DNA of 33,002 nt from a virus. Within the stretch, counting starts at the first letter, position 1; every line of letters begins with the position of its first letter. The DNA lies in IMG/VR virus record IMGVR_UViG_3300040801_002615, positions 1 to 33,002 of that record. One strand, given 5' to 3'. The position numbers and the translations under genes are program-made. The notes below the pieces were generated by a model. The model worked only from the letters and a program-made list of their open reading frames with translations, was not told where the DNA came from and made no database searches. This document shows positions 336 to 32,718 of this stretch, one piece after another.

Positions 336-773
336 TCAGCCCTCCAGATACACCGCCAGAATGTCCAGAATCGCTTCCTGATCTCCCTGCGAAATCTCGC
401 CTGAAGTCGGATCAGCAGTCAGCAACCCCCGCCGGGGCATCTTGCGAGTCCCAAACTCGTGATAAGTGGCATAGGGTTGTCCAAACCCCACCACCACATC
501 CGTAGCACTCGCCTGGTGGCTCAGACTCAGCAGCATATCTCCGTACCGGTCGAGGATTGTGCCGTTACCGTCCGATGGGTATTGATTGGCGGTCGAGGCG
601 GCCCAGGGTGCCCACGCTTGGCCGGTGGGATCGGATTGGGTCTCGAATCGCCCTGATACCCGGCTCTCCAACTCCATGCCGATGCCATCCAGAACCGGGG
701 TCAGATCACTGACCTTAGCCAGTAACTGATTGAAATAGTCGCGCACGCCTTGGTCGTGCAGATTCACCTTCAT
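336..773 (-). CDS. Phage virion morphogenesis protein, Mu gpG-like
   Basis: This 145-residue protein resembles the phage virion morphogenesis family (Mu gpG / P2 gpS tail-completion type), which acts at the head-tail joining stage. Visible family features are the early LLAKVSDLTPVLDGIGMELE helix, the FETQSDPTGQAWAPWA segment, LDRYGDMLLSLSHQ, and YATYHEFGTRKMPRRG, typical of this family. The ATG at 773 overlaps the TGA of the upstream gene by one base, which implies translational coupling; a GTG at 776 would add one residue. It is the last gene of the leftward head operon, next to the prophage left end. In Mu, gpG follows gpF in the same way. Confidence 0.85.
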   Translation of the reverse strand: MKVNLHDQGVRDYFNQLLAKVSDLTPVLDGIGMELESRVSGRFETQSDPTGQAWAPWAASTANQYPSDGNGTILDRYGDMLLSLSHQASATDVVVGFGQPYATYHEFGTRKMPRRGLLTADPTSGEISQGDQEAILDILAVYLEG

Positions 774-1609
774 CACGGTGATAGCCCCGCTCGCTGGGCC
801 GCCGTGGCGAGTTGTGCGTCGGCGGCTTTTAGCTTCTGATCGATCAACTGTCGGACATCACGGCCCCGCTGGTTGGCAACCCCAACGTTGTACCCAAACC
901 CAGGATCGATCCCCGCAGGCACTTGCATCACCTCCCCGGTGCGCCTATTGATCCACTCCCTGGTGGGTAGCATCGGGCGATTTTTCACCATCTCCTCGCC
1001 GCGTGGCGTTTTCCCCCGCTCATACTCTCTCTGGGAGACAGCGACCACCCGGCAGCGACACCCCCAGCCATTCGGCGGGTAGTGTGTTGCCCAGAACGGA
1101 TCATCCACCGGCAGCACCAGGTTGTGCCACTGGCGATGCTCGTCCCGAACCCGGGAATCGTCCTTGGTGATGTAGCGCAAATAGGGGTGAGTGCGCTTAT
1201 TCCGCTGCACCCGCTCCCACAGGCCCGAGGCGTAGGCCATGCGGGTGTTCACGTTATAAATGAGTTTCAGGCGCCTGGGATCGAACCGCGTCTGTACCTG
1301 CTCGCCGGTTTGCGGATCGCGCACATCGACGGTGCCCCACCAACCAGCCTGCGCCAACACGCCCTTGATATCCCGGGTCCAGTCTCGCCGGGATAGATCG
1401 CCCTGAACGCTGGCAGTGATGCCGTCGTGAATGCTTTGCAGGAGATCCAGCCGGGCCAGCCGGGAGACGGTGAACTGGTGGGCGTGTTCCTCCTGCCACA
1501 GCGCCCGCCAGTCGAAGGTGGGGGTGAGTTGCTGGCGGCGTTGCAGGTAGCGGACGGCCTCCGCCGGGGCGAGGGAGTACAGCCGGGCGAATTGCTGCGC
1601 CGGTGTCAC
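773..1609 (-). CDS. Head morphogenesis protein, Mu gpF-like (SPP1 gp7 family)
   Basis: This 278-residue protein matches the Mu F-like / SPP1 gp7 minor head protein family, which associates with the portal during head assembly. The N-terminal half is helical. The diagnostic segment is near residues 165-190: HRQWHNLVLPVDDPFWATHY followed by PPNGWGCRCRV, the conserved PPxGxxCRC motif. Upstream, RYITKDDSRVRDEH is also typical. The start overlaps the end of the portal gene by 4 bp and the stop overlaps the start of the gpG-like gene, so the three genes are coupled. The length agrees with phage members that lack extra C-terminal domains. Confidence 0.88.
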   Translation of the reverse strand: MTPAQQFARLYSLAPAEAVRYLQRRQQLTPTFDWRALWQEEHAHQFTVSRLARLDLLQSIHDGITASVQGDLSRRDWTRDIKGVLAQAGWWGTVDVRDPQTGEQVQTRFDPRRLKLIYNVNTRMAYASGLWERVQRNKRTHPYLRYITKDDSRVRDEHRQWHNLVLPVDDPFWATHYPPNGWGCRCRVVAVSQREYERGKTPRGEEMVKNRPMLPTREWINRRTGEVMQVPAGIDPGFGYNVGVANQRGRDVRQLIDQKLKAADAQLATAAQRAGLSP

Positions 1610-3042
1610 TGCGTATCCCCATCGGGCGTGATGTCGGCATTGGCGGCCAGACGGGCGGTGAATACCAGTTGCGTCAACATCTCATGGAGGGCGCTGGGGT
1701 CGCTGGCCCCGAGCAACGTGGTCAGTCGGGCCAGGAACTCGCCAGCGGTGAGGTTGCCTGCCCCGTCGGCGGCGGCCTGGATGGGATCGACCATGGGCGA
1801 GAGCACGGCTTCCCAATCACCGGCCAACTCTTCATAGAGCGCTCGCAGACCGTCCTCGTTGGGTTGTTCTGCGAACGCGACGGGTGTGGCGGGTGGTGTG
1901 GGTGTGGTCACCTCCGCGATGTCGTCCTCTCGCAGGTTGTAGCTGCGCATCCAGTAGGTCTTGGTAAACTTCAGCCCTGCCCCGCTCAGGGTCTGGTCGC
2001 GTTTGGCCTGGCGGTCGTTCACCTCGTCTTGCTCCCACATGGTGAACTTCGGTGCTTGGGTGTTCTCCCCGGCGTTGAGATCCACCATCCAGCGGATAAG
2101 CTGGTTCATGGCGGATTCGACCATCCGGGCCTCGTCGTCGCGTAGCGTATCGGCTACCTCCAGCCCCGCGGTGGCGCTTGCGTTGGTACTGGAGGCTTCG
2201 GTGGTCTGGTTCTGGCCCAGCAGCGCGATGGCAATCTCACCCCGGCAGTAGTGCAGTAGCTCCGAGTACGCATCGGCGGTGCCGGATTTGTTCGATTCGA
2301 TGATCTGGACGCTGGCATCGTCGGGAATTACCGCAACGGCGTCCTGCACCATGGATTCCAGACGGTCCAGGAGGTCGTCTACCTCGGTTTTCGGCGTGCC
2401 CCGGGGTGTTTGGCCCACTAACCAGGGCGTGCCGTACTTCTCGGCGAACTTGACCCAGAACTTCAGGCCACCCCGCTTGAACGTGGTGGGCCAGAACACC
2501 AGCGACAGATCGCCAACGCCGTAGGGGTTGGCGTAACTCGCCCCCTGGCGGGTAACCAGAAACTTCCGGGGCGGTAGCACCTCGCCCTGGAGAAGATGTC
2601 CACGGGAGCGAAACCGTAGCTCCCCGTCCCCGTCGTAGACGAACCATTTCGGCGGTTTGGCGATCACCTTACCCGGTACCGTCCAGCCCTCGCGGTGTGT
2701 CCAGATCACTTCCAGCGGCTGATAGCCATAGAGCGACCCATCCAGCATATCGGCAACGATCTGGCCGATATCCAGGTGGGCTAGCGCCTGCTGGACTCGT
2801 TTTGCCAGGCGCTGCGGGCCGGCCTCTGCCTCGATGGACCATTCCAGCCCCCGCACCGCGGCCTTCCGGCGACGGATACAGCCTGCCACGATGGGGTCAC
2901 TGCGCAGGTTCTCATAGACATCGATGTCGCGACCCATCCGCTTCAGGATTGGGTCGGGATTCGGAAGATAGCCCCCGAACAGGCTCGCGAACTCCGGGCT
3001 ATGTTCCCGGGTGGCGATATGCTGACTCAGCCGATCAAGCAT
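1606..3042 (-). CDS. Portal protein, Mu gp29-like (DUF935)
   Basis: This 478-residue protein is the portal vertex component, forming the dodecameric ring through which DNA enters and leaves the head. It shows the DUF935 pattern: SDPIVAGCIRRRKAAVRGLEW near residues 48-68, SLYGYQPLEVIW in the middle, the KFAEKYGTPWLVGQTPRG segment, and LGQNQTTEASSTNASA, equivalent to the conserved LGQxxTTE stretch. The C-terminal 100 or so residues after the DUF935 core are more variable. It overlaps the terminase gene by 8 bp and the gpF-like gene by 4 bp on the same strand, consistent with one head-packaging transcript. Confidence 0.92.
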   Translation of the reverse strand: MLDRLSQHIATREHSPEFASLFGGYLPNPDPILKRMGRDIDVYENLRSDPIVAGCIRRRKAAVRGLEWSIEAEAGPQRLAKRVQQALAHLDIGQIVADMLDGSLYGYQPLEVIWTHREGWTVPGKVIAKPPKWFVYDGDGELRFRSRGHLLQGEVLPPRKFLVTRQGASYANPYGVGDLSLVFWPTTFKRGGLKFWVKFAEKYGTPWLVGQTPRGTPKTEVDDLLDRLESMVQDAVAVIPDDASVQIIESNKSGTADAYSELLHYCRGEIAIALLGQNQTTEASSTNASATAGLEVADTLRDDEARMVESAMNQLIRWMVDLNAGENTQAPKFTMWEQDEVNDRQAKRDQTLSGAGLKFTKTYWMRSYNLREDDIAEVTTPTPPATPVAFAEQPNEDGLRALYEELAGDWEAVLSPMVDPIQAAADGAGNLTAGEFLARLTTLLGASDPSALHEMLTQLVFTARLAANADITPDGDTQ

Positions 3043-4510
3043 CGTAGCCCTCCAGAAGCGTGGCGCTGGCGCGGCGGCGGCGACTGGCCACGGTGACCGG
3101 GCCGCTGTTCAGTTCCCGGCTGGCGAAGTAGGCCAGGGCCAGGGCGACAGCGCTATCCCCGTGACGCTGGCCCTGGTCGGCGCCGGTCTGGCGACCATCG
3201 GGAATGCGGGGCACACCCTTGATGACTTCCACGGCCCGCAGATCCGCCAGGATATCGGCATCCTTCGGCAGCTCGTCCAGGTCCCCATCCTCCAGCGCCG
3301 CTTTCACCGGGGGCATGTGCTCGCGATACCAGGCTTCGCTCAGCATCACCTGCTGGATGCGGCTGCCGTAGTGCTGCATGGCCCGCTCGGCGAGGTACTG
3401 GCCGTTGCCCCGGGCGTCGAACGCGCCGCCCATCAGCCGTAGCCGATCCAGCACGTAGACGATGGCCTGTTCCTGTTGGCGAAAGGGGGTGTTGCGCATC
3501 TCCAGCACGCAGGGGCAGCGCCGGCGTAGGGTCTGTTCTTGCAACAGGGGGATCAACACGGTGAGGTCACCGGTGCGCCCGAAATCTTCACCCACGAAAG
3601 CTAGCGCCTCCGGCGGGAGCGTGGCGAGAACCGGTCCCAGGTGGGTATCCAGCCACTCCGCCATTTCCGCCTCGCGGATGTGGTCGGGTAGCAGCTCGAA
3701 GCCCTTACGGGCCGTGTAGCGGAACACCGGCGTTGCCGCCGACATGCGCGATTCGATCAGCGCCCTGCTCAACCAGGCCCCGCCAGACTCTGCGGGGATG
3801 CAGAACAACTCCTCGTCGGCGTTGGGTTCATAGCGCTTGATCAGCGCCTGTCGCCAGTCATGTTGTGCAGCGGGTGACCACGGTTGATCCGTCACCTGGC
3901 AGATGCGCCTATAAAGGCCATCCTCAAGCGCATCGTCCAGGGTCACCCGGTGGAGGCCATAGTCGAAGCGCCCCGAGCGGATGTCGTTCACCAGGGTGTT
4001 GAAGGGGTTATCCACCCCGTTGTGGGTGCTGATGATGCGAATGCACCCGCCCCACATGGTCATGGCCATGGCCGACTTCAGGATTGCCGCCAGGTCGTCA
4101 CAGAACGCGGCCTCGTCCACCACCAGGCGCTCGCCGGGGCGGCCCTTGCCCCGGAGCTGGCGAGGGTTGCTGCTGAAGGTGATGATGGCGTGGCCGCTGT
4201 CGAATTTGATCCGGAAGGAGGTGATAGCCCGGTCACCCTCCTCGAAGATGGTCTCCTCGATCTGGCTCGCGGCTGCCTGGAAGGCTCTGGCCCACTGGGC
4301 GCAGTCCTGAATAAAGCCGGCGGTCATGTCCTTGTCGTAGGAGATGTAGTAGACATTGGCGCCGGTCTTGGCCGCGGCGTGTAGGACCGAGTCGGCGGCC
4401 TCGCTATAACTCAGGCCGATGCGGCGGGATTTCTCGATGATCTTCACCGGGCGGGTATCTTCCACCCAGCGCTCCTGGTACGGGAGCAGTATCGCCCCGG
4501 AGATGCTCAT
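3035..4510 (-). CDS. Terminase large subunit, Mu gp28-like
   Basis: This 491-residue ATPase-nuclease packages DNA. The N-terminal motor has a variant Walker A, EKSRRIGLSYS at residues 26-36, as in Mu-type terminases that lack a canonical P-loop. Walker B with the catalytic glutamate is RLVVDEAAF around 128-136, followed by the coupling motif STHNG at 161-165. The C-terminal RNase-H-like nuclease is marked by FVGEDFGRTGDLTVLIP around residue 305, with later acidic residues near HGDSAVALALA. The start overlaps the small-subunit stop (ATGA), and the stop overlaps the portal start. Length and motifs agree with an intact enzyme. Confidence 0.93.
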   Translation of the reverse strand: MSISGAILLPYQERWVEDTRPVKIIEKSRRIGLSYSEAADSVLHAAAKTGANVYYISYDKDMTAGFIQDCAQWARAFQAAASQIEETIFEEGDRAITSFRIKFDSGHAIITFSSNPRQLRGKGRPGERLVVDEAAFCDDLAAILKSAMAMTMWGGCIRIISTHNGVDNPFNTLVNDIRSGRFDYGLHRVTLDDALEDGLYRRICQVTDQPWSPAAQHDWRQALIKRYEPNADEELFCIPAESGGAWLSRALIESRMSAATPVFRYTARKGFELLPDHIREAEMAEWLDTHLGPVLATLPPEALAFVGEDFGRTGDLTVLIPLLQEQTLRRRCPCVLEMRNTPFRQQEQAIVYVLDRLRLMGGAFDARGNGQYLAERAMQHYGSRIQQVMLSEAWYREHMPPVKAALEDGDLDELPKDADILADLRAVEVIKGVPRIPDGRQTGADQGQRHGDSAVALALAYFASRELNSGPVTVASRRRRASATLLEGYDA

Positions 4511-5058
4511 TCGCTGAGGCCCGTCAGGATCGCGGCCCGCATGGCCTCGACCCCGTCGTCTGATAGTCCCGCCCGGCGGGCGGCGGTTTCGGCCAGGGCG
4601 GCGGCGTTCTCGGCGGCGCGGGCCAGTACCTGGGACTCGTGTTTCTTTTGCTGGAGGCTGACCACACCGAGTTTGTTTAGCGTCATGGCGGCGGTGAACA
4701 GCGGCTTCAGGCGCTCTTCAGGGGCGGCGTCGTCGTCGATTTGCTTGAGGGCCAGTAAAACTTTGAACATCTCGGACTGCACCAACGAGATCGACGCGGC
4801 CAGGCGGTGGTCTGGCTCATCGCCCGCCGCTTCGGCGATGGCCTGAGCCGCGCGGGTGGAATCCCGGATGTCGGCCAGCCGCTCCTCCAATTGCTGGCCG
4901 TAGCGATGCAGGGCGGACTTGGAAATCTTAACATCGTGCTCCTGCTCGATGTTTTGGGCGATCCACTCGTAGCCGCTGAAGCCGGATTGCTCCAGCATCC
5001 GGTCAATTTTCTTGCGCAACTCGTCGGGGAGTTGCACCACCGTTGAACGCCGGGGCAT
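4507..5058 (-). CDS. Terminase small subunit, Mu gp27-like (DUF3486)
   Basis: This 183-residue protein matches DUF3486, the small terminase family of Mu-like phages, which recognises the packaging site. The N-terminus has the characteristic LPDELRKKIDRMLEQSGFSG (residues 10-29), then a helix-turn-helix-like stretch with KISKSALHRYGQQLE (residues 44-58). The rest is helical and alanine-rich with ISLVQSEMFKVLLAL. It overlaps the large subunit by 4 bp and lies 4 bp downstream of the gp26-like gene. The order small terminase, large terminase, portal is that of Mu. Confidence 0.9.
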   Translation of the reverse strand: MPRRSTVVQLPDELRKKIDRMLEQSGFSGYEWIAQNIEQEHDVKISKSALHRYGQQLEERLADIRDSTRAAQAIAEAAGDEPDHRLAASISLVQSEMFKVLLALKQIDDDAAPEERLKPLFTAAMTLNKLGVVSLQQKKHESQVLARAAENAAALAETAARRAGLSDDGVEAMRAAILTGLSE

Positions 5059-5062
5059 AGGG

Positions 5063-5368
5063 TCACCAATACTTCTTGGGCCGACCGATACCCGGCTCGT
5101 CCTCCGCCGTGTATTCGGCCATGTTGATGCCGTGGCGGGTCAGCCGGGCGTGCCACCGGCCATTGGGGCTCACCTCCACATGCACATGGCCGCCTTCGGC
5201 CAGGTACTCCAGTTCCTGGCGCAGCTCGTGGTCAGTGGAATCGGGGTAGATCGCCTGTACCACGGGCAGCACCGACTCGGCGTAGGCGCCGATGGGCCGG
5301 GCGTTGTTCAGGGTCAGGATGATATGCCACCGCACGGCTTCGCGGCGCACACGTTGGGCATCAATCAT
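5063..5368 (-). CDS. Mu gp26-like winged-helix protein
   Basis: This 101-residue protein sits between the DUF2730-like and DUF3486 genes, where Mu has gp26. The sequence is consistent with a small winged helix: an N-terminal helix RREAVRWHIILTLNNARPIG (residues 8-27), a second helical part HELRQELEYLAEGGHVHVEV, then a beta-like stretch GRWHARLTRHGINMAEY. Proteins at this position in Mu-like phages resemble ArsR-type regulators in shape, but their role is unknown. It overlaps the upstream gene by 8 bp. The assignment rests on position, length and general shape. Confidence 0.65.
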   Translation of the reverse strand: MIDAQRVRREAVRWHIILTLNNARPIGAYAESVLPVVQAIYPDSTDHELRQELEYLAEGGHVHVEVSPNGRWHARLTRHGINMAEYTAEDEPGIGRPKKYW

Positions 5369-5777
5369 TTTTGAGCAAACCTCTGTTACGGGCCATGAGT
5401 TCGAGCGTGTTGGCCAGGGCGTCCAATTTGGCTTCGATCACCGACTGGTTGCGGATGTGGTCCTCTCGGCGGACGTACAACACCGGGAGACTGGCCCGGA
5501 GCGCCTGGAGGTCCTCCTCGACCGCCTTGTGGTCGCGCAGCAGTGTTTGCATTCCACTGGCCAGGGTGGAGTGTTCGTGCTGGAGGATGCCCAGTCCATC
5601 GGCCACGACGTCGTGGTCGGTCTGTAGCTGGATGTAGCGGTTATCTAGTTGCTGAATGTGGGCGTCTATGCCGTCCACAGCCCGTTTTAGGAGCTTTGAG
5701 ATGATGGCGATGAGAAAACCCGACCAGGTAACCACTAGCCCGAGCAGTGTTAGTCCATCGTTCCAACCGATTTCCAT
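5361..5777 (-). CDS. Mu gp25-like membrane-anchored coiled-coil protein (DUF2730)
   Basis: This 138-residue protein begins with one membrane segment (GLTLLGLVVTWSGFLIAIIS, residues 8-27) and continues as a long helical coiled coil rich in Q, D, L and H. That is the architecture of DUF2730 proteins, encoded just upstream of the terminase genes in Mu-like phages. Its function is not established. A short purine-rich stretch (AAGGG on the minus strand) lies about 7 nt upstream of the ATG at 5777. It is the first gene of the leftward head operon and faces the regulatory gap at 5778-5936. Confidence 0.72.
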   Translation of the reverse strand: MEIGWNDGLTLLGLVVTWSGFLIAIISKLLKRAVDGIDAHIQQLDNRYIQLQTDHDVVADGLGILQHEHSTLASGMQTLLRDHKAVEEDLQALRASLPVLYVRREDHIRNQSVIEAKLDALANTLELMARNRGLLKND

Positions 5778-5792: not shown

Positions 5793-5818
5793 TCTGGGAT
5801 CTCAGGGATGATCCCAGA
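5793..5818. promoter_or_regulatory. Inverted repeat over the leftward operon start
   Basis: TCTGGGAT (5793-5800) and ATCCCAGA (5811-5818) form a perfect 8-bp inverted repeat with a 10-nt loop. It lies 15 bp upstream of the gp25-like start codon and covers the position where the leftward transcript from the activator box should begin (about 5801). It could be an operator or a leader hairpin. No U-rich tail is seen, so a terminator is unlikely. Confidence 0.4.
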
Positions 5819-5888
5819 TCCGGGCTCCTTCAATCTTGTAAACCAGTTTACTTATTGCCCGGGGCTGGCGGTGGGTAGGCTAGGGGCG
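5808..5888. promoter_or_regulatory. Divergent activator-dependent promoter region with dyad box
   Basis: The dyad GTAAACCAGTTTAC (5838-5851) sits between the leftward head operon and the rightward accessory operon. A 15-base sequence including it, TTGTAAACCAGTTTA, is repeated exactly at 16522-16536 before the protease gene. With the dyad centred at 5844.5, rightward TAGGCT (5876-5881) and leftward GATCAT (minus strand of 5808-5813) lie at -10 positions if the dyad is centred near -43.5, the Mor geometry known from Mu. The symmetric box could therefore drive both operons. No good -35 elements are seen, as expected for activator-dependent promoters. Confidence 0.6.
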
Positions 5889-5936
5889 TTCGTGATAGTG
5901 AACTCCCAGAATTCTACAACCCCGGAGGGTAGCAAT

Positions 5937-15439: not shown

Positions 15440-16050
15440 GCCGGCGCGCCCTGAACCGGCGGGCGCTGATGGCCAAGCTCCAGGTGGCCCGCCACCAACT
15501 GGGCATGGACGATGACGCCTATCGGCTACTCATCGCTCGGCATGGTGCCAGCGGCGATCCCCCCTCCAGCACGACGCTGTCCGATGACGCCCTGGTGGTG
15601 GTGGTGACGGAGCTGGAGGCCAAGGGCTGGAAGCCCGCGGCCCCCCGCCGCTCCACCCGACGCCAGCTCGCCACCGAACCGCTACACCTGAAGATCCGGG
15701 CGCTGTGGCGGTTCCTCCATGAGATCGGGGTGGTGCGCCACCCCGATGAGAAGTCCCTGGCCGCTTACTGCAAGCGCCTCACCGGGGTGGAGGATCTGCA
15801 CTGGATCAACCTCCGGCAGGCCGAGCGGCTGGTGGAGAGCCTGAAGAAGTGGGGAGAACGGGAGCTGCCCGCGCGGCTGGAGGCGCGGCGGGTGGCCCTG
15901 GTGACAGCGGGGTGTCTTGAAGATCGCCACAGCCTGGACCATCTTATCGGCCACGTGGCCGGCCGTTTGAGTCCGGCGGGATACGATGCACTCCACGCCA
16001 CCTGGAATTATTTTGATGGACTGGAAGATGGACGAGAAAGTCGTCCGTGA
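15436..16050 (+). CDS. gemA: GemA-like regulatory protein (DUF1018)
   Basis: This 204-residue protein matches the GemA family of Mu-like phages, reported in Mu to affect host gene expression and DNA supercoiling. Typical features are ALMAKLQVARHQLGMDDDAY then RLLIARHGASGDPPSSTTLS at the N-terminus, LHLKIRALWRFLHEIGVVRH in the middle, and KRLTGVEDLHWINLRQAERL at about residues 115-135. The start overlaps the previous stop and the 3' end overlaps the Mor-like gene. Position near the end of the early region, just before Mor, is the same as in Mu. Confidence 0.85.
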   Translation: MSRRALNRRALMAKLQVARHQLGMDDDAYRLLIARHGASGDPPSSTTLSDDALVVVVTELEAKGWKPAAPRRSTRRQLATEPLHLKIRALWRFLHEIGVVRHPDEKSLAAYCKRLTGVEDLHWINLRQAERLVESLKKWGERELPARLEARRVALVTAGCLEDRHSLDHLIGHVAGRLSPAGYDALHATWNYFDGLEDGRESRP

Positions 16051-16381
16051 TGGCCCGGAATTGCTGGTCAACCTCTGCGAGGTGATCAGCCGCCAGGTCC
16101 GCGAGGCGGGCCTGGACTGGGAGACCGCCGACACCGTGGCGCTCGCCGTGGTGGAGAGCATGGCCGAGCAGTGGGGCGGCCAGAGTGTCTATTTTCCCAA
16201 GGGTTCGCACGCGCAGATGCGACTGCGCAAGCGCGATCTGGACATCTACCGCGAGTTCACCGGCCACAACCACGCCGACCTGGCGGCCCGCTACGGGGTC
16301 AGCAAGGTCTGGGTCTACGCCATCGTGAGAAGACTTCGCGAAGAGATCCGCAAGCACGGCACCCAGGTTGACCTGTTCTGA
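16016..16381 (+). CDS. Mor/C-type transcription activator
   Basis: This is a 121-residue protein if it starts at ATG 16016 (GGAA 8 nt upstream); ATG 16028 is also possible and an in-frame ATG at 15986 less so. The Mor family pattern is clear: GPELLVNLCEVISRQVREAG, then LAVVESMAEQWGGQSVYFPK, a basic linker RLRKRDLDIYREFTG, and the C-terminal helix-turn-helix NHADLAARYGVSKVWVYAIV. In Mu, Mor turns on middle transcription and its relative C turns on late genes. Only one such gene is seen, so it may serve both roles. It is the last early gene and sits next to the dyad at 16524. Confidence 0.88.
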   Translation: MDWKMDEKVVRDGPELLVNLCEVISRQVREAGLDWETADTVALAVVESMAEQWGGQSVYFPKGSHAQMRLRKRDLDIYREFTGHNHADLAARYGVSKVWVYAIVRRLREEIRKHGTQVDLF

Positions 16382-16589
16382 GGCCCTGAGAGGGGCTGCT
16401 CCCTACCTAACCCCTGGTTTCCCCCGTCAGCGCCTTCTAGGTGCGTCATGACGCGTTATGACGGTATTTCCGCTGCCTGGCCGATCTGCCTGCCACCGCC
16501 AGCAGTCCCCACCCCTCGTTTTTGTAAACCAGTTTAATAGATTGGCCCCCGGCCGCCGGTCATGATGACCCTATTTACGGGAGGGCACC
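16382..16589. other. Largest gap between genes, at the prophage midpoint
   Basis: The gap lies between the Mor-like and protease genes, and the midpoint of the element (about 16502) falls within it. It contains the palindrome GCGTCATGACGC (16443-16454) followed by a near-repeat CGTTATGACG (16454-16463), and the activator dyad at 16524-16537. In Mu a strong gyrase site lies at the genome centre just upstream of the protease gene I, so the same element may be here. A weak imperfect hairpin follows the Mor stop (16382-16400). Confidence 0.5.
16522..16574 (+). promoter_or_regulatory. Late promoter with activator dyad
   Basis: TTGTAAACCAGTTTA (16522-16536) is identical over 15 bases to 5836-5850. 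CATGAT at 16561-16566 matches four of six -10 consensus bases and lies 37 bp from the start of the dyad; the first copy has its -10-like TAGGCT at 38 bp. It precedes the protease-capsid-tail operon. The Mor-like protein encoded just upstream is the obvious candidate to bind here. Confidence 0.62.
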
Positions 16590-17522
16590 ATGGCAGTAAT
16601 ACCCCTGTTTCGACCCGGTCGGCACACCGACATCTCCGGCCAGACGCTGACCTTCAGCGAGGCGGACTGTCAGGCATCGGCCGCGGCCTACGATCCGGCA
16701 TTGCATGAAGCACCGTTGGTGGTGGGTCACCCCCAGACTGATGCACCCGCCTATGGGTGGGTCTCCGCGCTGCGGTTTGCCGAGTCCGAACTGGTGGCTG
16801 AACCCCATCAGGTGGACCCCGCTTTCGCTGAGTTGCATGGTAGCGGACGGTTCAAGAAGGTTAGCGCGGCGTTCTTCCGTCCGGACTCGCCGAACAACCC
16901 CAAACCCGGCGTGTGGTATCTCCGCCATATAGGATTTCTGGGCGCGCAACCTCCGGCGGTGAAGGGGCTGAAGGCTGCCCAGTTCGCCGACGGTGATGAC
17001 TACCTCACCGTGGAGTTTGCCGAACCGGTGACCGCCGATCCGATGGCCAGCGATGCACAGACTCGCCTGGAGCGCGAGAACGCCCAACTGCGGGCCGCTA
17101 TCCAGCAGATGCACCGCGACCAGGAGCAGGAGAGGCTGCGGCTACGCCATGTTACCCATCAGGAAAAAGCGGCCAAGCTCGTGGCCGAAGGCCGGATCAG
17201 CGAACGCGACGCTCTTGTGGTGGTGGCCGTGCTCGATGCGCTGGCCGATGACGCCCGGGTGGCCTTCGCCGAGGGCGAAGCGCCGACGGAACTCCATACG
17301 GCACTGCTGGACAGCCTGGGCGGTATCCCCCCCCGGGTGGAGTTCGCGGAGGTGGCCACGAAGGACCGGGTCGCCAGGGTGGAGGATGACACCGTGCGCT
17401 ACAGCGAAAACACCAACCCCGAGCGCATCCCCCAGGACCAGGCCATCCGCGCGTATCAGAAAGAGCACGGCGTGAACTACTTCGCGGCGGCCATGGCCGT
17501 CATGTCCAAACCCCAGCAGTAA
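16590..17522 (+). CDS. Prohead protease and scaffold, Mu gpI-like
   Basis: The ATG follows a strong GGGAGGG ribosome site (16580-16586). The 310-residue protein has the Mu gpI layout: an N-terminal protease domain (about residues 1-130; APLVVGHPQTDAPAYGWVSA, GRFKKVSAAFFRP, WYLRHIGFLGAQPPAVKGL) and a C-terminal scaffold part that is a coiled coil (about 155-200) with a helical tail ending in a head-binding-like segment. The conserved GHP and the SAAFF segments carry likely catalytic residues. In Mu the same gene gives the protease and, from an internal start, the scaffold. It heads the late operon. Confidence 0.86.
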   Translation: MAVIPLFRPGRHTDISGQTLTFSEADCQASAAAYDPALHEAPLVVGHPQTDAPAYGWVSALRFAESELVAEPHQVDPAFAELHGSGRFKKVSAAFFRPDSPNNPKPGVWYLRHIGFLGAQPPAVKGLKAAQFADGDDYLTVEFAEPVTADPMASDAQTRLERENAQLRAAIQQMHRDQEQERLRLRHVTHQEKAAKLVAEGRISERDALVVVAVLDALADDARVAFAEGEAPTELHTALLDSLGGIPPRVEFAEVATKDRVARVEDDTVRYSENTNPERIPQDQAIRAYQKEHGVNYFAAAMAVMSKPQQ

Positions 17523-17531
17523 GGAGCGCCA

Positions 17532-18485
17532 ATGAGCCGCCTATCCAGCCTAAGGGTCGTCGATCCGGTCCTGTCCAACCTCAGTATCGGCTACAGCAAC
17601 GCCCAGCTCGTCGCCGATCAGTTGTTCCCCTACGCGCCGGTTGAGCGTGAAGGGGGCAAGATCCCCATGTTCTCCAAGGAAGCGTTCCGGGTGTACCAGA
17701 CCGAGCGGGCGCTGCGGGCCAAGAGTAACCGCATCAACCCCGAGAACATCACCGACCAGGACATCGTGCTCGATGAGCATGATCTGGAGTACCCCATCGA
17801 CTACCGGGAGGATGCCGAGTCGGCATTTCCGCTCCAGGCCCACGCGACCATGGTGGTCACCGAGGGCATCCGGCTACGGCATGAAAAGTACTGCGCCGAC
17901 CTCGCCCAGAACACCGCGAGCTACCCGGTGGGCAACAAAATCGTGCTCTCTGGCACCAGCCAGTTCACCGACGGCTCGAACTCCGACCCCGAGGGGGTGA
18001 TCGACGACGCCAAGAGCGCCATCCGGGCCAAGATCGCCCGCCACCCGAACACCATGGTGATCGGCTACCCCAGCTACAAGACCCTCAAGCGCCACCCCAA
18101 GCTGCAGGCGATCCTCTCCGACACCCGCCCGCGCATGGTGCAACTGGCCGATCTGCGAGAGCTGTTCGAGATCGAGAACATCATCGTCGGCATGGGCACC
18201 TTCGTGGCCGATGGCGGTGATGTGTTCAGCGACATCTGGAGCGACAACATCGTGCTCGCCTACGTACCCGCGCCCCTGCCCGCGGGTGGTGGTGCCGAGG
18301 GCGAGGGCAACCGGCGGAACATGTACAACCCCTCCTACGGCTACACCCTGCGTAAGCGCGGCTGGCCGCAGGTGGACACCCGTACCGAGGACGGCAAGCT
18401 CGAAATCGTCCGAAACACCGACATCTACCGCCCGTACCTCCTCGGCGCCGAGGCGGGCTACCTGATCTCCGATACCAACGGCTGA
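17532..18485 (+). CDS. Major capsid protein
   Basis: This 317-residue protein directly follows the protease/scaffold gene with AAGGAG 5 nt before its ATG. It has the appearance of a phage coat protein of the HK97 fold: GYSNAQLVADQLFPYAPVER, GGKIPMFSKEAFRVYQTERA, a spine-helix-like segment AESAFPLQAHATMVVTEGIR, and the late RNMYNPSYGYTLRKRGWPQV. I recall this type (starting with VVDPVLSNLSIGY-like text) as the coat protein of many siphophages and Mu-like prophages. No separate Mu gpT-type sequence is seen elsewhere. It would assemble hundreds of copies into the head. Confidence 0.87.
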   Translation: MSRLSSLRVVDPVLSNLSIGYSNAQLVADQLFPYAPVEREGGKIPMFSKEAFRVYQTERALRAKSNRINPENITDQDIVLDEHDLEYPIDYREDAESAFPLQAHATMVVTEGIRLRHEKYCADLAQNTASYPVGNKIVLSGTSQFTDGSNSDPEGVIDDAKSAIRAKIARHPNTMVIGYPSYKTLKRHPKLQAILSDTRPRMVQLADLRELFEIENIIVGMGTFVADGGDVFSDIWSDNIVLAYVPAPLPAGGGAEGEGNRRNMYNPSYGYTLRKRGWPQVDTRTEDGKLEIVRNTDIYRPYLLGAEAGYLISDTNG

Positions 18486-18531
18486 GACTGAGCCCAACCC
18501 TGACTGACCCTTACTTACAGGAACCACGACG

Positions 18532-18723
18532 ATGACCGACGAGAAAGACACCACCAAGGGCGGCGTACCCGAGGAGTTCCCCTACGTGGTGGGCGACACC
18601 CCCATCGTTCACAACGGTCTGCGCTACGAGCCTGGCCAGACCATCATGTTGACGGATATGGAGGCGCTGCATCTGGGTCCCCGCGTCCAGCCCGTGCCCA
18701 CCAAGGGAGGTAGCCGGAAATGA
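18532..18723 (+). CDS. Small protein after the capsid gene
   Basis: This 63-residue protein follows the capsid gene with AGGA about 9 nt upstream. The central part reads VVGDTPIVHNGLRYEPGQTI then MLTDMEALHLGPRVQPV, a short beta-type domain like small phage proteins that lie next to coat or tube genes. A similar fold is suggested for the 59-residue protein at 21335-21514, although they are not close in sequence. The stop overlaps the next start. Function unknown; Mu has a small gene (35) at this point. Confidence 0.62.
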   Translation: MTDEKDTTKGGVPEEFPYVVGDTPIVHNGLRYEPGQTIMLTDMEALHLGPRVQPVPTKGGSRK

Positions 18724-19052
18724 TGACCCAACAGGTTGTCCTCACGTTATCCATGACCGCCGCGGCGGCACAGCCACGGTTGCGTTTCATCGGCTTCGAT
18801 GGCGGCGTGCCCGCGGCGGGTGCTGCCGTGGTCGGTGTCACCGAGGCCAGTGCCGCCCTGGGTGAACAGGTGCCCGTCAACGCCCAGGGCGTGCTGCTGG
18901 TGGAGGCTGGCGGCGCCGTCGCCGTGGGCGCCGAGGTGGAGACGGACGCCGCCGGCAAGGCCATTGCCCAGTCCGCTGGCGTGACCTGCGGCCGGGCGCT
19001 GGATCTGGCCGCCGCTGACGGTGACATCATCCGGATCCTCCGGGGCGGCTGA
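18720..19052 (+). CDS. Possible capsid decoration protein (DUF2190-like)
   Basis: This 110-residue protein has a GGGAGG site upstream (18705-18710) and overlaps the previous stop. It is small, beta-rich and glycine/alanine-rich: VVGVTEASAALGEQVPVNAQ, GVLLVEAGGAVAVGAEVETD, AAGKAIAQSAGVTCGRALDL, AAADGDIIRILRGG. This repeats the logic of DUF2190-type head decoration proteins, which end with a G-x-A-L-x-x-A-x-x-G-D pattern. It would bind the outside of the capsid. Evidence is pattern and position. Confidence 0.62.
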   Translation: MMTQQVVLTLSMTAAAAQPRLRFIGFDGGVPAAGAAVVGVTEASAALGEQVPVNAQGVLLVEAGGAVAVGAEVETDAAGKAIAQSAGVTCGRALDLAAADGDIIRILRGG

Positions 19053-19085
19053 TACCGACCAACACAACCAATACCGGGCGTACTG

Positions 19086-19376
19086 ATGCTAGCGCAAATC
19101 CTGTCTGAACCCAGCGGCCAACCGTCGACCATGCGTGTCATCACTCTGGTCGCACATGTTGCGTTCTGGGGTGTCTGGGCTGCTCTGTCGATCATGGCTG
19201 GCCGGATGATCCAGATCGAGGAGCCCGTGCTGCTGCTGCTGCTGGGACAGAGCGGACTGAAGTTGGGGCAGCGCTGGGTGGAGGGTAAGAGTTCGGTGGC
19301 CACAGCGTCCCAGGGTGGCCGGAAAACCCTGCCCACCGTGGAACTGCCCACCAGCAGGCCGGCAGCCGCACCATGA
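19086..19376 (+). CDS. Small membrane protein, holin candidate
   Basis: This 96-residue protein has two hydrophobic stretches: MRVITLVAHVAFWGVWAALS (residues about 16-35) and EEPVLLLLLGQSGLKLGQ (about 45-62), then a polar, proline-containing tail. Two membrane segments with a charged C-terminus is a common small-holin layout, and I recall similar phage membrane proteins annotated as holin-like. No endolysin lies beside it, which weakens the call. The ATG lacks a strong ribosome site. Its stop overlaps the DUF1320 gene start. Confidence 0.5.
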   Translation: MLAQILSEPSGQPSTMRVITLVAHVAFWGVWAALSIMAGRMIQIEEPVLLLLLGQSGLKLGQRWVEGKSSVATASQGGRKTLPTVELPTSRPAAAP

Positions 19377-19879
19377 GTGGCTACGCCACCCTCACCGACC
19401 TCGCCCGCATGGCCACCGGCCATTGGGAGGAGTTGGCCCAGCACACCGGACGCGATGCCCGGGTGACGGGCGAACTCCTCCACCTCACTGCCACGGGCGG
19501 GGATCGGAGCGGGTACGACGCGGCGGTGATCGCCCTGGCCGATGAGTCCCACGCCACGCTCCTGGACGCCCTGGAGCGGGCCAGCCGCTTCGCCGATACC
19601 TACCTCGCCCCACGCTACCGGGCGGTGATGCCCCTGTCCGAGGGGCTGGTGCTGAGTAGTGACCTACCCAGCGCCGTGGCAGCGGTGGCACTGCGCCGGC
19701 TCTACGGCCACGCGGTGCCCGAGGAGGTCCGCCAGGGCACCGCCTGGGCCGATGCCTACCTGCGCGACATCAGCACCGGCAAGGTCTCGCTGGGTGGCGA
19801 GGACACCGCCACCGCGCAGGCCCCCGGCGAGGTGCGGGTACGGGCACCGGGCAAGTCGTTCGACTGGGATAAGTACTGA
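19373..19879 (+). CDS. Head-tail connector, Mu gp36-like (DUF1320)
   Basis: This 168-residue protein matches DUF1320, the Mu gp36 family thought to form part of the head-tail connector. Features are the N-terminal YATLTDLARMATGHWEELAQ, the helix ATLLDALERASRFADTYLAP, then RYRAVMPLS, and the C-terminal AWADAYLRDISTGKVSLGGE, where the conserved G-K-x-x-L motif stands. It overlaps both neighbours by 1-4 bp. The next gene is gp37-like, as in Mu. Confidence 0.85.
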   Translation: MSGYATLTDLARMATGHWEELAQHTGRDARVTGELLHLTATGGDRSGYDAAVIALADESHATLLDALERASRFADTYLAPRYRAVMPLSEGLVLSSDLPSAVAAVALRRLYGHAVPEEVRQGTAWADAYLRDISTGKVSLGGEDTATAQAPGEVRVRAPGKSFDWDKY

Positions 19880-20325
19880 TGGATTTCCTGGCGCTGGAGG
19901 AGGCGATCATCACCCGGCTGCGGGAGACTCTGCCGGAGACTCTGCGGGTGCTCTCGGCGCTCGATCTCGCCACCGTCGCCAAGGGCACGCTCCCCGCCCC
20001 CTCGGTGCATGTGATCTACGACGGCTACGACATCGTGGAGCAAAACCCCGCCCGCTGGCGGATGGTGCAGCGCTGGCTGACGGTTGTGTGTGTGCGCTCG
20101 GTCACCGCCGTGCAATCGGGGGCGGGCTCGCGGGATGCGGCCGGCCCGCTGCTCGGCGACGTGGTGGCCTCGCTCCACCACTGGCAACCCGCTGTTGCCG
20201 ACCTGGATGCCCGGTCCCTGGAAATCGACTCCGCACCCCGCCCCGGCTACACCGCCGGATCCGGGTTTTTCCCCCTGGCCTGGACCACTACGGTCACGGT
20301 CAAGACCCATCCTGAAAATTACTGA
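19879..20325 (+). CDS. Mu gp37-like protein (DUF1834), tail terminator type
   Basis: This 148-residue protein follows the gp36-like gene with a one-base overlap, as gp37 follows gp36 in Mu. It opens with DFLALEEAIITRLRETLPET and has PAPSVHVIYDGYDIVEQNPA then RWRMVQRWLTVVCVRSVTAV, giving the mixed alpha/beta layout of DUF1834 proteins, which act at the head-tail interface. A later part reads DAAGPLLGDVVASLHHWQP. The length is normal for the family. Confidence 0.8.
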   Translation: MDFLALEEAIITRLRETLPETLRVLSALDLATVAKGTLPAPSVHVIYDGYDIVEQNPARWRMVQRWLTVVCVRSVTAVQSGAGSRDAAGPLLGDVVASLHHWQPAVADLDARSLEIDSAPRPGYTAGSGFFPLAWTTTVTVKTHPENY

Positions 20326-20336
20326 GGAGAGCACCT

Positions 20337-20573
20337 ATGAATCTTCGACTCGTGCTCCTCGTGGCGATGCTGGGGGCGGCGCTGCTGTCCACCGGCTGCC
20401 AGGAGGAGTTGGTGAGCCTGGCGGATCGGGCGGTGACGCGCTACTGCGATCGCTCACCCCCCCAGCGCCGGTTGTTGCGCGACGTGGTGGCCGAGGCCGT
20501 GGCCCCGAACACCATCGAGATCACCTGCGTCGTCGATGCGGTGACCCCCACCCCGGAGATGTCCGATGAGTAA
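20337..20573 (+). CDS. Small predicted lipoprotein in the tail operon
   Basis: A strong GGAGA site precedes the ATG. The 78-residue product starts with a signal sequence (MNLRLVLLVAMLGAALLSTG) ending at Cys21, so lipid attachment and outer or inner membrane anchoring are likely, although Ser at -3 is not the commonest residue. Two further cysteines (RYCDRS and ITCVVD) could pair in the periplasm. Possible roles are outer spanin (Rz1-like, although it is not proline-rich), a superinfection barrier, or an amurin-like lysis factor. It overlaps the tail tube gene by 8 bp. Confidence 0.62.
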   Translation: MNLRLVLLVAMLGAALLSTGCQEELVSLADRAVTRYCDRSPPQRRLLRDVVAEAVAPNTIEITCVVDAVTPTPEMSDE

Positions 20574-21297
20574 CACAAAAATCGGCATGTATGCCGGTGA
20601 TGTGCTGGTGAGCCTGATGGCCGATGGCGGCGCCTGGGAGAACTACCGGGGGCCGTTCAACGCCAACAAGATCGAGATCAACGACGGCAACATGGAGATC
20701 AAGCGGCGGATATCGCGTATGCGCGATACCTACGGCGCCGCGCTCGCCACCGCCATCATTCCGCAGCCGGCGAGCATCGGGATTGATTTCGACGATGCCG
20801 CCGCCGACGTGGTGGCGATGATGTTTCGCTCCACCGCCGAGACTCTCACCCAGGGCTCCGGCACCGTCACCGCCGAGACCCACGCCCGGGAGATTGGCCG
20901 CTGGATCAAACTCGCCTACGGCAACATCGACGAGGGGTCGGTGGTGGTGGATACCGATGCGGGCGCGGGGCTGGGTAGCGCCTACGAGATCAAATACCGG
21001 GGCGGATTTATCCGGTTTCTCTCCGGCACTGGCGATGCCGATATCGACTACGCCTACAGCGCCGTGGACGGCACCAAGATCCGGGGTGGGACGAAGCAAC
21101 AGGTGCGGATGCGGCTGCACCTGGACGGGCGCGATCTGGCCGACAACAGCCCGGTGGAACTCTGGGTCCACGACGCCACCGTGGGACCGTCGGCGGGGCA
21201 GAACGTGCTGGCCACCGACCCCGTACTGACGACGCTGTCCGGGGAACTGGCGGTGCCCTCCGGAGGCAGCACCGCCTACGAGATCCACTACAAATAA
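20566..21297 (+). CDS. Major tail tube protein, siphovirus type
   Basis: This 243-residue protein lies between the connector genes and the tape measure gene, where the tube protein is expected. It is beta-rich with a phage-tube look: KIGMYAGDVLVSLMADGGAW, FNANKIEINDGNMEIKRRIS, the central AREIGRWIKLAYGNIDEGSV, and IKYRGGFIRFLSGTGDADID. The C-terminus ends with LSGELAVPSGGSTAYEIHYK. No sheath protein gene precedes it, unlike Mu, so the tail should be non-contractile. I recall similar proteins in D3112/B3-type phages. Confidence 0.76.
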   Translation: MSNTKIGMYAGDVLVSLMADGGAWENYRGPFNANKIEINDGNMEIKRRISRMRDTYGAALATAIIPQPASIGIDFDDAAADVVAMMFRSTAETLTQGSGTVTAETHAREIGRWIKLAYGNIDEGSVVVDTDAGAGLGSAYEIKYRGGFIRFLSGTGDADIDYAYSAVDGTKIRGGTKQQVRMRLHLDGRDLADNSPVELWVHDATVGPSAGQNVLATDPVLTTLSGELAVPSGGSTAYEIHYK

Positions 21298-21334
21298 TCC
21301 GGCCGGATTGGCCCCTATATATAAGGAGTAACCC

Positions 21335-21514
21335 ATGGCCCAGAAAGCTGACGACAAACCGGACGACAAACCCGAAGAAAAACCCGGCTCCGGGTTTGTC
21401 ACGGTCACCCTGAAGAAGGGGCACACACACAAGGGTGTCTGGCGCCCGGCGGGTGAGAAGGTGGAGGTCACCCCCGCCCGGCGGGACTGGCTGGCCAAGC
21501 GCGGGGTGATCTGA
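21335..21514 (+). CDS. Small 59-residue protein, DUF7210-like
   Basis: The gene is short but has an AAGGAG site 8 nt before its ATG. The N-terminus is a charged, unstructured stretch with KPDDKPEEKPGSG. The remainder (VTVTLKKGHTHKGVWRPAGE then KVEVTPARRDWLAKRGVI) has the pattern of small phage domains with a conserved HTH(A/K)G and a closing W-L-x-x-x-G-x-I. They are usually found next to head-tail or tube genes (compare Mu gp38). Role unknown; it may be a minor structural or assembly protein. Confidence 0.72.
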   Translation: MAQKADDKPDDKPEEKPGSGFVTVTLKKGHTHKGVWRPAGEKVEVTPARRDWLAKRGVI

Positions 21515-21533
21515 CCTCGCGCCGACGCCCACC

Positions 21534-21558
21534 CATCGCCACCCGTCGGGTGGCGATG
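21534..21558 (+). other. Perfect 11-bp hairpin before the tape measure gene
   Basis: CATCGCCACCC (21534-21544) and GGGTGGCGATG (21548-21558) form a perfect stem with a GTC loop. It lies in the short gap before the tape measure start and is followed by a C/T-rich stretch without a U-run. It may be an RNA stability or attenuation element separating tube from tape measure expression. No good ribosome site is seen between it and the next ATG. Confidence 0.5.
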
Positions 21559-21580
21559 TCCTCTCCCCCCCATTCGATAG

Positions 21581-24500
21581 ATGCCCATGGCCCGTAACCT
21601 CGAACTCCAACTCCGTATCCAGGCCATCACCGAGGGCCTGGATACCGTTCGTGGACTGATCGGCGGCCTGGCCGATCTGGGCGTCAATACCGACGAGGCC
21701 GCCGACCAGGTTGAGTTGCTAGGCAATATGCTCGATCACCTGACCAACCAGCAGGAGTTGATCGAGTCATTCCGCACCCTCAAGAAGCAGACCGTCGATA
21801 ACGGCAAGGCGCTGGACGAGGCCCGCGCCCACGCCGCCGCCCTGGGCCAGGAACTGGCCAACACTGAAAACCCCACCCAGGCCCAGACCAAAGCGTTCGA
21901 GAAGGCCCGTAAGGCCGTCAACGAACTGGAGGCCGAACACCAGCGCAACACCCTGGCGCTCCAGGAACACCGCCAGGCCATGGCGGATGCGGGCATCGAC
22001 ACGGCGAACCTGGGGGCCGAGCACCAGCGGGTACGCCAGGCGCTGCGGGCCACCGAGCAGGAAATCACCGACCTGACCCAGAGCCTGGAGGCGCAGAGCC
22101 TGGCCATGGAGCAGGGCGCCCAGGCCGTGGCCGATGCGGCCCAGCGGGCAGGCGAGGCGGCGGCAGAGGCCGTTGCCGACGCGGGGGGATCGGCGGAGGA
22201 AGCCGCCGCGGCTGCCGAGCGGGCCATCGAGGCGGTGACCGCCGCTGGTGAAGCGGCTGCCGACGCGGTCGGCGAGGCAGGCGGATCGGCCCAGGACGTG
22301 GTCACCGCCATGACTGACGCGGCCACCGAGGCGGCGGAGGAGACCCGGGCCACGGCCCAGGCCACGGCCCAGGCCGGTCAACGCAGCAACAGCGTGCTGG
22401 GTCGGTTGCGCCAGGGCTTCGGGTCGTTGCGCAGTAACATGCTGCTGGCCGGACAGGCCACCCTGGTGTTCGACTGGATCGCCGACAAAGCCGGGGCGGT
22501 CATCGCCAAGGTGGTGGATCTGTCCAACCGCTACGCCGAACTCACCGGCAAGCTGGGCCAGGTCACCGAGAGCAGCGAGGAACTGGCCGCTGCCCAGCAG
22601 GCGGTGTACGACATCGCTCAGGACACCCGGTCGGTGATGGACAGCACCGCCGAACTCTACGCCAAGGTCGCCAAGGCTGGCGCGGACCTGAACCTCACCC
22701 AGCGCGAGACCGCCGATATCACCCGCCTGGTGAACCAGGCGTTCAAGATCGCCGGTACCGACGCGCACGCGGCTGATGGTGCTATTCGCCAGCTTGCCCA
22801 GGGCCTGGCGAGTGGGACACTCCGAGGCGATGAGTTCAACTCCATGATGGAGGCCAGCCCCCGGCTGATGGAGGCGCTCGCCGAGGGGCTCGGGGTGGCC
22901 AAGGGTGAGCTGCGGGGGATGGCGGAACAAGGGGCGCTGACCTCGGAGCGGATCATTGCGGCGCTCATGTCGCAGACCGATACGATTCAGAGCGAGTTCG
23001 AGGAGTTGCCGAAGACCGTCGATGGCGCAGTCACTCAGATCGAGAATGCGTTCCTGCGCTATGTGGGGCAGATGGATCAGGCGACCGGCGCATCGGATTT
23101 GTTCGCCACCGCAGTAGAGGGGTCGGTGGCGGTGGTGGACGCCGCCGCTGAGAAAATCGCAGCGCACATCGGTGCGGTAGTGGCGGTACTGGTGGCCAGT
23201 CTGATACCGGCGCTGGTAGCGTCGCAGGCGCGACTCACCGCGTGGGCGGTGAGTGCCGTATCGTCATTTCAAATCACGGCAGGGGCGGCGGGGCTAACAG
23301 CCAAGGCCATGACTGCGGTCTCGGCGGCGCTGAAGCCGTTACTGGCGCTAGCCGCCGGATTCCTCTTCGGGCAGTACCTCTATCAGCAGTTCGCGGTTGC
23401 CAGGAAGGCCGGGGTAGCCCTGGTCGCAGCGTTGCTGGAGACGGGGGAGGCGATCCGCTATGCCTGGGAAGTAACCAAGGCGGTGTTCACCGATGACACA
23501 ATCGAGGATGCCACCCGCCGTCATGAGGAGCGCCTGGCCGAACTCCGCGACAACATGACCCAGGGGTTCATTGACGCGGGCAAGCCACTGGAGACCCTGG
23601 CCGGTGGTGTCGACGACCTCGCCGACTCAGAGGAACGCGCCATCAACCTCGGTCTCGACCTGGCCGAGACCATCAAGAAGATCGGTGAAGAGTTCCAGAA
23701 GACCGGCGATAAATCCGCCGCGCTCGACACCCTCATCAAAACCCTGAGCGATGAGGGCGCTTTCACCAACGGCGCTGATGGTGTCGCGCTGTTGGTCGAT
23801 GGTCTCACCCGCTTGCAGGAGCAGATCGGGCTGACGGATGAGGAACTCACAGATGGGTTGCTCGGCACCCTGAGTGGCCTCTCCGGCGACGAACTCCGGG
23901 ATTTCCAAGCCGCTGCGGAGCAGGCATTCTCCCAGGGCAAACTCTCCGCCGAACAGATGGCCGTGGTGCTCGATGGCGTAACCGCCGCCAGTCTCGAAAA
24001 ACTGGGCCAGACCGCCAAGAAGGCAGGCGACGAGGCCATCGCCGTGTTCGAGGGCCTGGCCCGTGAAGGGACTGCCGCCGCCGCCGACATGGCGGGGGCC
24101 TTCCAGGACGCCCTATCCAAGGCCGCCACCCCAGACCAGGTGGCCGAACTGCAATCCCTCTGGGAGGAGTACGGCCGCACCGGCAAACTCTCCGCCGATC
24201 AGGTGGCCGATGCGCAGCTCGCCGTGCAGCGCCGTCTGGTGGAGATCGCCCAGCAGTCCGACAGCACCACAAAAGCGTTCCAGGCTCTCGGGCTGAAAAG
24301 CGCCGAGGCCCTGGCCCTGGCCACGGCCGAAGCGGAACGCAACTACGAACGCCTCAAGGCCGGGGGTGCCACCACCGAGCAGTTGAAGGCAGCGTTTCTT
24401 GCCTACGCCGAGGCCGCCGTCCAGTCGGCAACCGCCACCGGCCAGACCGTCGACGCCAGTGTCGAGGCCGAAGCGGCCACGCTGGGGCTGTCGACAGAAC

Positions 24501-25726: not shown

Positions 25727-26121
25727 CCGCTACTACGACGCTGACCTATGACGGAACCACAATCGACTTGCCGGGGGATATTCAGTGGACCGACGAGTTC
25801 GCCTGGAGTCCCGTGGTTCAGCAGTCGGAGTACGCCTCCGACGGGACGCTGATTCTGGAGGAGACGCTACGGCAGGCAGGCCGCCACATCACGTTATCCA
25901 CTGGCGCGTTCGCGCTGGTGAGTCGGGCCACGGTTGACGCGCTACGGGGTTGGGAGTCCATGCCAGGTATTCAAATGACCCTGGTGCTGGCGGATGGCGT
26001 ATCTCGGGCGGTGCAGTGGCGTCGACCAGGTATCCAGGCCAGGCCCTGGCAGGATTATCACATCGCTCCACCAGCGAGTGATGACCCCTTTACAGTGACA
26101 TTGAATTTCTTGGAGATATGA
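25723..26121 (+). CDS. Tail protein after the tape measure
   Basis: The ATG overlaps the tape measure stop (ATGA). The 132-residue product is beta-rich: TTTLTYDGTTIDLPGDIQWT, EFAWSPVVQQSEYASDGTLI, VLADGVSRAVQWRRPGIQ, and DDPFTVTLNFLEI. Proteins of this size and position in siphophages often connect the tape measure to the tail tip (distal-tail type). I do not recognise an exact family. It is tightly packed between the tape measure and the large tail-tip gene. Confidence 0.68.
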   Translation: MTATTTLTYDGTTIDLPGDIQWTDEFAWSPVVQQSEYASDGTLILEETLRQAGRHITLSTGAFALVSRATVDALRGWESMPGIQMTLVLADGVSRAVQWRRPGIQARPWQDYHIAPPASDDPFTVTLNFLEI

Positions 26122-29723: not shown

Positions 29724-29833
29724 TTCACGTTTACCGATCTACTGACACTGGCGCCCCTACCCTGACCTCCGAGGCTGGGCCACTGACAGAGCAGGTGGAT
29801 GCGTTTACGGTTGAGGTGAGGGGGGATCGTTAA
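29720..29833 (+). CDS. Very small 37-residue tail-operon gene
   Basis: The ATG at 29720 overlaps the previous stop and follows GGGGAG at 29710-29715. The product opens with IHVYRSTDTGAPTLTSEAG and ends EVRGDR. I recall this opening (H-x-Y-R-S-T-D-x-G-A-P-x-L-T) from the N-terminus of much longer phage structural proteins, so this may be a reduced or truncated copy. The next gene begins at the base after its stop. Ribosome site and coupling support expression. Confidence 0.6.
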   Translation: MIHVYRSTDTGAPTLTSEAGPLTEQVDAFTVEVRGDR

Positions 29834-32500: not shown

Positions 32501-32718
32501 ATCTGTATCGGGAGTTCAGGGGGTTGTTTGCCGACGCGCCGGTGCAGGTGGGGACGATCACCGTTGACAATGGGGACGGGACGGTGGTGGTGGAGGTGCC
32601 GCAGGGGTGGTCACTGCGGATTGATGGGAGCGGGACGGTGGGGGCTGTGGTGTATTTCGAGCGGGGGCGGATTGTGGGGGACGCGCCGAATCTGTCGGTG
32701 GTAACGCTAGATGTGTGA
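32497..32718 (+). CDS. Small terminal tail-operon protein, 73 residues
   Basis: The ATG overlaps the stop of the hub-like gene. The product is beta-rich: FADAPVQVGTITVDNGDGTV, VVEVPQGWSLRIDGSGTVG, AVVYFERGRIVGDAPNLSVV. I recall small proteins of this form as the last gene of tail operons in Mu-like siphophages, without a known role. It ends 36 bp before the right-end repeats. Confidence 0.68.
   Translation: MNLYREFRGLFADAPVQVGTITVDNGDGTVVVEVPQGWSLRIDGSGTVGAVVYFERGRIVGDAPNLSVVTLDV

Follow-up and report, generated by a model that had tools for sequence, protein, structure and literature searches.

Dyads Repeated before Two Divergent Late Operons of a Mu-Like Prophage: Predicted Binding Sites of Its Mor-Family Activator

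Late Gene Blocks and Box Copies in the Window

The window, that is, the whole stretch of DNA analyzed here (33,002 nucleotides, a complete IMG/VR record), comprises a leftward late block 1, a rightward early block, the mor gene, and a rightward late block 2. Late block 1 (336..5777, minus strand) is the lysis/head block and contains two small genes, at 5361-5777 (PHROG 462) and 5063-5368 (PHROG 436), together with the genes encoding the small and large terminase subunits, the portal, a Mu-F-like protein, and a virion morphogenesis protein. Late block 2 (16590..32718, plus strand) encodes the head maturation protease/scaffold, the major capsid protein, the head-tail adaptor, the major tail protein, and the tape measure protein, and includes the tail-tip genes. 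The Mor-family late activator gene (16016..16381, plus strand) was assigned by similarity to PF08765 (E 1.5e-30), to phrog_532, late transcriptional activator (E 2.2e-32), and to Mor of phage Mu (PDB 1rr7, E 1.7e-9), and its product combines the PF08765 domain with a C-terminal HTH, as in the Mor/C family. It is the only Mor/C match in the window; neither a second paralog nor, with it, a C cascade was found there. The Mor sequence (9l0y) and the late activator C (9vw8, 9l0x) are represented in recent PDB entries, which might allow the box code described below to be read structurally.

Several other features surround these blocks. A CI-like repressor gene with a CI-type HTH lies at 8623-9072. 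A rightward accessory cluster, opening with a gp49/gp66-type gene (PF13876), occupies the side of late block 1 where relatives carry a lysis cassette, and no such cassette was recognized within 5778-9100. The left prophage end contains the repeat GTGAGATAAAT at 217-227 and 239-249, and the left end of phage Fc02 carries the similar GTGAGATAAA. The DNA outside the prophage ends (right flank from ~32795) apparently represents one interrupted host gene.

The 15-mer TTGTAAACCAGTTTA, which contains the dyad TAAA-N4-TTTA, was originally reported as two error-free copies more than 10 kb apart, and a whole-window search found exact matches only at these positions, 5836-5850 (copy 1) and 16522-16536 (copy 2). 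Still only these two sites are found when up to three mismatches are allowed, against 0.12 expected, and one of 100 shuffled windows had two sites; the copy number is thus well above chance. Both copies are intergenic. Copy 1 (no strand assigned) is located at the start of late block 1, between it and the rightward accessory cluster, and copy 2 (plus strand) lies 140 bp past the mor stop codon and 53 bp ahead of the head protease gene. The longer dyad GTAAAC-CA-GTTTAC, proposed for both copies, is complete at copy 1 (5838-5851), but copy 2 (GTAAACCAGTTTAA) lacks its final C. Read leftward, copy 1 is TAAACTGGTTTA (as a leftward promoter, AAGTAAACTGGTTTACAA), and copy 2 read rightward is TAAACCAGTTTA; the identity of the two copies is partly a consequence of the near-palindrome.

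Predicted Promoter Layout at the Boxes

Each box heads a late block and has a weak -10 element at a fixed spacing beyond it, with no -35 element, which is the layout of the Mu Pm promoter. The Mor site in Pm is a 16-bp element with two 5-bp inverted repeats and a G/C-rich 6-bp spacer, extending from -51 to -36 with its center at -43.5, and the promoter has a -10 but no -35 (PMC4390567, PMC4287176). We located the Pm 16-mer, AGTAAAGCCGGTTAAT, from the published description and the annotated Mu sequence; it is followed by TATCCT at offset 25, the same arrangement as in the relatives of the window.

The -10-like hexamers noticed originally are all present, namely CATGAT at 16561..16566 (plus strand; at offset 25-30 from the 12-bp dyad, matching Mu Pm), TAGGCT at 5876..5881 (plus strand), and the mirror-image GATCAT on the minus strand at 5813-5808. 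The latter is the -10-like hexamer of the putative leftward late promoter, at offset 26-31 as in relatives, while TAGGCT is a weak candidate directed toward the gp49 accessory cluster. When scaled to Mu Pm, with the dyad at -51 to -36 (PMC4287176), the predicted starts are 16574, 5888, and 5801, the same values as in the original prediction. The predicted leaders, ~24 nt from 5801 and ~16 nt from 16574, are of ordinary length. Judged by the distance to the -10 element (offset 25-26 versus 25 in Pm), the dyad center would be near -43.5 relative to the predicted +1, as had been proposed by analogy with Mor in Mu, and the same layout is seen in relatives. A search for sigma-70 -35/-10 promoters in both box stretches of the window found none, in agreement with the absence of a -35 hexamer from Pm.

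With two short A/T-rich arms in inverted orientation flanking a short spacer, the boxes reproduce the geometry of the Pm element, but G+C makes up only half of the spacer in the window box, unlike the G/C-rich spacer of Pm. The proximal UP subsite upstream of the dyad is also A/T-rich, with an A/T fraction of 0.62-0.95 at -55 to -51 over 42 sites, although these positions overlap the outer arms in some box classes; the partial UP element of Mu Pm resembles this stretch.

In the window and in most relatives, a G+C-rich palindrome is centered on the -10 hexamer: GGGATGATCCC (5805..5815) at the leftward promoter and GGTCATGATGACC (16558..16570) around CATGAT. Complementarity of the palindrome arms was observed at 126 of 230 positions, compared to 87 (sd 6) for re-paired arms, in a set of 46 sites, some of them related. 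The palindrome embedding the -10 element may be a second control element.

Boxes and Block Orders in Related Phages

Searches with the terminase, transposase, and protease yielded relatives in ~100 viral loci, nine bacterial contigs, and 20 further genome regions; the named phages PhiKM, KP12, Fc02, and Mu were also compared. A search of viral contigs with the window Mor as the sole query found no relative. Scans for the exact box gave mostly chance matches, with a single one (L175) in a Mu-like phage.

The original prediction proposed looking for the box upstream of the late operons of relatives, and phage-specific dyads do recur at both places with fixed -10 spacing. In the first set of relatives, the scan for TAAA-N4-TTTA produced 26 matches versus 4.4 expected from base composition, nearly all of them either ahead of the lysis/head operon or immediately 5' of the protease gene. 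A nAnnnT hexamer aligned in the direction of the late genes follows the 12-bp dyad by 25 or 26 bp in 17 of 18 cases, compared to at most 4 of 18 at any other non-overlapping neighboring pair of offsets; these 18 dyads were picked regardless of the -10, and the relatives are not fully independent.

The promoter model, first seen in the TAAA class, was later applied to other classes by a scan that required only a shared inverted repeat and the -10 spacing. One dyad with this spacing is common to both promoters in 19 of 21 phages at shuffle P <=0.01, the failures being L125 and L106. The passing phages include classes unlike the window box, namely AATGG..CCATT (L103, L104, L107, L108, and L120), TTTTAAA..TTAAAA (L123, L124, and L129), and TTTTCG..CAAAA, which in Fc02 is represented by TTTTCGCYCCTTCCAAAA ahead of the holin and protease genes. 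A further class, TTTTAGC..GCTAAAA, was assigned in L127. The protease and lysis genes of PhiKM and KP12 are preceded by the boxes TAAAGCAGATTA and TAACGCGCTTTA. In L106, both late blocks are headed by a repeated dyad of another class, CGGAACCCGTTCCG, found near the protease gene and again close to position 2641 of the reversed locus. Possible extra boxes were observed in tail blocks, at 17224 in L109 and at 4903 and 10719 in L110 (TAAACGCCTTTA, TAATCCCCTTTA; PhiKM and KP12). Finally, most Mu-like relatives whose genes are in the usual order have no Pm-type site before the protease gene, which would be expected where one late promoter farther upstream is enough.

At some sites, the predicted +1 falls on the start codon or within one or two bases of it. 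This was seen in L090, L092, L097, L098, L117, L103, L127, L129, and L111 (20152), and likewise at site 1 of L087 and L127, with no Shine-Dalgarno sequence visible at these sites. In Fc02, the predicted late starts are close to record positions 11754 and 20152, the latter coinciding with the A of the protease ATG. This suggests that the late mRNAs of these relatives are leaderless, whereas the predicted leaders in the window are normal.

The blocks themselves occur in at least four orders, and in each of them both late blocks are headed by boxes of a single class. The head(-) early(+) capsid(+) order is found in the window and many relatives, early(-) head(+) capsid(+) in Fc02, PhiKM, and KP12, head(-) early(-) capsid(+) in L129, and capsid(-) early(+) head(+) in L127. 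The head module was originally thought to have been relocated in this prophage, but the inverted head block is not private to it, being common to many relatives. The transposase of the window is 42-46% identical to those of B3-like phages, and its gene order, head(-), early(+), mor, capsid-tail(+), is not the B3-type order, in which the early genes are reversed and the late genes colinear. The boxes appear to be portable, one per late block. Inverted blocks could work because each late block carries its own box; of the earlier proposal that the box explains how the inverted module stayed functional, the presence of a box at each block start is borne out, and tolerance of inversion due to the box is what we infer from it.

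The direction of copy 1 can be judged from the same relatives. Its leftward reading, TAAACTGGTTTACAAGATTG, has counterparts in TGAACTGGTTCACAAGACGG before the lysis/head operon of L034 and TAAAGCCCTTTACAAGATTC before the head operon of L017, which makes it the conserved orientation. Copy 1 is flanked by a qualifying hexamer on both sides, and most likely it fires leftward, from a start at ~5801, a direction that rests on homology to other head promoters. A possible addition to this reading, which we consider somewhat doubtful, is that copy 1 is a bidirectional Mor promoter also driving the rightward gp49 cluster. TAGGCT at offset 26-31 to the right of copy 1 has its A and T correctly placed, and in L034 a near-identical dyad, flanked on both sides by qualifying hexamers, separates a leftward cluster containing gp49 from the lysis/head operon. 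On the other hand, a hexamer like TAGGCT is expected by chance in about one of ten cases, and it is only when copy 1 is read leftward that the AGATTG following the dyad agrees with copy 2. Of the three units once assigned to one activator, the head and capsid-tail blocks are supported, whereas for the accessory cluster the evidence is one degenerate hexamer and the L034 arrangement.

Box Specificity and the Proposed Regulation

The similarity of boxes follows the similarity of Mor proteins. In the 14 phages for which all genes were available, the correlation is 0.71, and the partial correlation given the transposase and protease is 0.64 (P 2.5e-4), whereas, given Mor, the transposase makes no significant further contribution. 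For 19 phages, the HTH part of Mor correlates with the box given the rest of Mor (partial correlation 0.27, P 8e-4). Among Mor proteins whose boxes are known, those closest to the window Mor share only about 36-47% identity with it. A distant 39-kb Mu-like record, G811, contains TAAACCAGTTTAATAGATT, 19 bp of which are identical to window positions 16525-16543 (G811/L219). The G811 box is located directly after the mor gene, upstream of the late genes, and is followed by a perfect TATAAT at offset 25; the recognition helix is SLVWVYEI in G811 and SKVWVYAI in the window Mor.

Given the position and -10 spacing conserved in relatives, the match to Mu Pm, the covariation of box and Mor, and the near-identical G811 box by mor, we predict from sequence comparison, with high confidence, that both copies are binding sites of the prophage's own Mor-family activator. 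Repeated palindromic sites are typical of repressor operators, and the prophage does encode a CI-type HTH protein (8623-9072), so that the dyads might instead be operators from which this or another prophage regulator silences the late operons in the lysogen. We consider this very improbable: the repressor and early-gene region has no nearby copy of the box, the center at -43, the fixed -10 spacing, and the missing -35 define an activator position, and the box class tracks Mor. Binding of a host protein in place of Mor, conceivable in that host factor sites can be short palindromes, is equally hard to credit, as the exact dyad is rare in host genomes and its sequence shifts from phage to phage in step with Mor. 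Many copies in the host had been named as evidence against a Mor box, but each of two multi-megabase host genomes of relatives contains a single site of the TAAAGCGCTTTA class, which in one of these genomes lies at the site of the prophage. That a palindrome was repeated by chance in the intergenic gaps, where A+T content is higher, is a practically negligible possibility given the place, spacing, and sequence class conserved across relatives. The operator, host-factor, and chance readings were thus rejected on the Mor-linked box class, the activator spacing, the rarity in hosts, and the conservation.

For Mor binding at both copies, we suggest the following scheme. After induction, the early operon would be transcribed through mor, its last gene, and a Mor dimer would bind each dyad, centered at ~-43.5, replace the -35 contact, and recruit sigma-70 RNA polymerase. 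Lysis/head transcription would then proceed leftward from near 5801 and protease-capsid-tail transcription rightward from near 16574, and with a box per block, the blocks could be inverted relative to each other yet switched on together. Since the window yielded a single Mor/C gene, the late operons are probably under direct control of Mor, with no separate C step like that of Mu. We infer a two-step cascade (early, Mor, late) in place of early, Mor, middle, C, and late in Mu.

It is an even call whether this scheme extends to a large group of Mu/B3-like transposable phages, in which one Mor-class activator would run all late genes from portable boxes at block starts. Blocks in this group would be freely inverted and reordered (at least four orders), box and Mor would co-diverge into separate specificities, many late mRNAs would be leaderless at AUG, and the -10 would lie in a G+C palindrome, a possible second control element.

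Comparison with Known Systems

Mor and C of Mu are textbook activators. In the literature searched, Mor/C sites are described for Mu only; the present comparison predicts boxes, -10 elements, and transcription starts for ~20 phages that fall into several specificity classes. These predictions offer an account of how late modules pointing in opposite directions can switch on together and a natural set of variants from which to read the DNA-recognition code of Mor.

Mu Pm and the window share a Mor-family activator, a dyad with the TAAA half-site, the -10 distance, the absence of a -35, and a box directly downstream of mor (copy 2). Unlike the window boxes, which are predicted to serve two divergent late blocks directly, Pm drives the middle operon that makes C. 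In having one activator for several late operons with related elements of dyad symmetry, the window resembles the Mu promoters Plys, PI, PP, and Pmom with C (PMC4287176). The window protein itself is nearer to Mor than to C (30% versus 25% in the alignment), a PDB search ranks Mor first, and no second Mor/C gene was found. Fc02 and other B3-like phages share with the window transposase A/B, mor as the last gene of the early operon, separate late clusters, and a dyad repeated ahead of the holin gene and of the protease gene; RNA-seq of Fc02 showed that the late genes form separate clusters, of which the first opens with the holin-endolysin genes and the second consists mainly of virion structural genes (PMC9936078). 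Fc02 differs in having colinear late genes, a reversed early operon, and its own box. The closest named relatives, Escherichia phage PhiKM and Klebsiella phage KP12 (terminase 59%, Mor 45-48%), differ from the window in the B3 gene order and in possible further boxes in the tail block.
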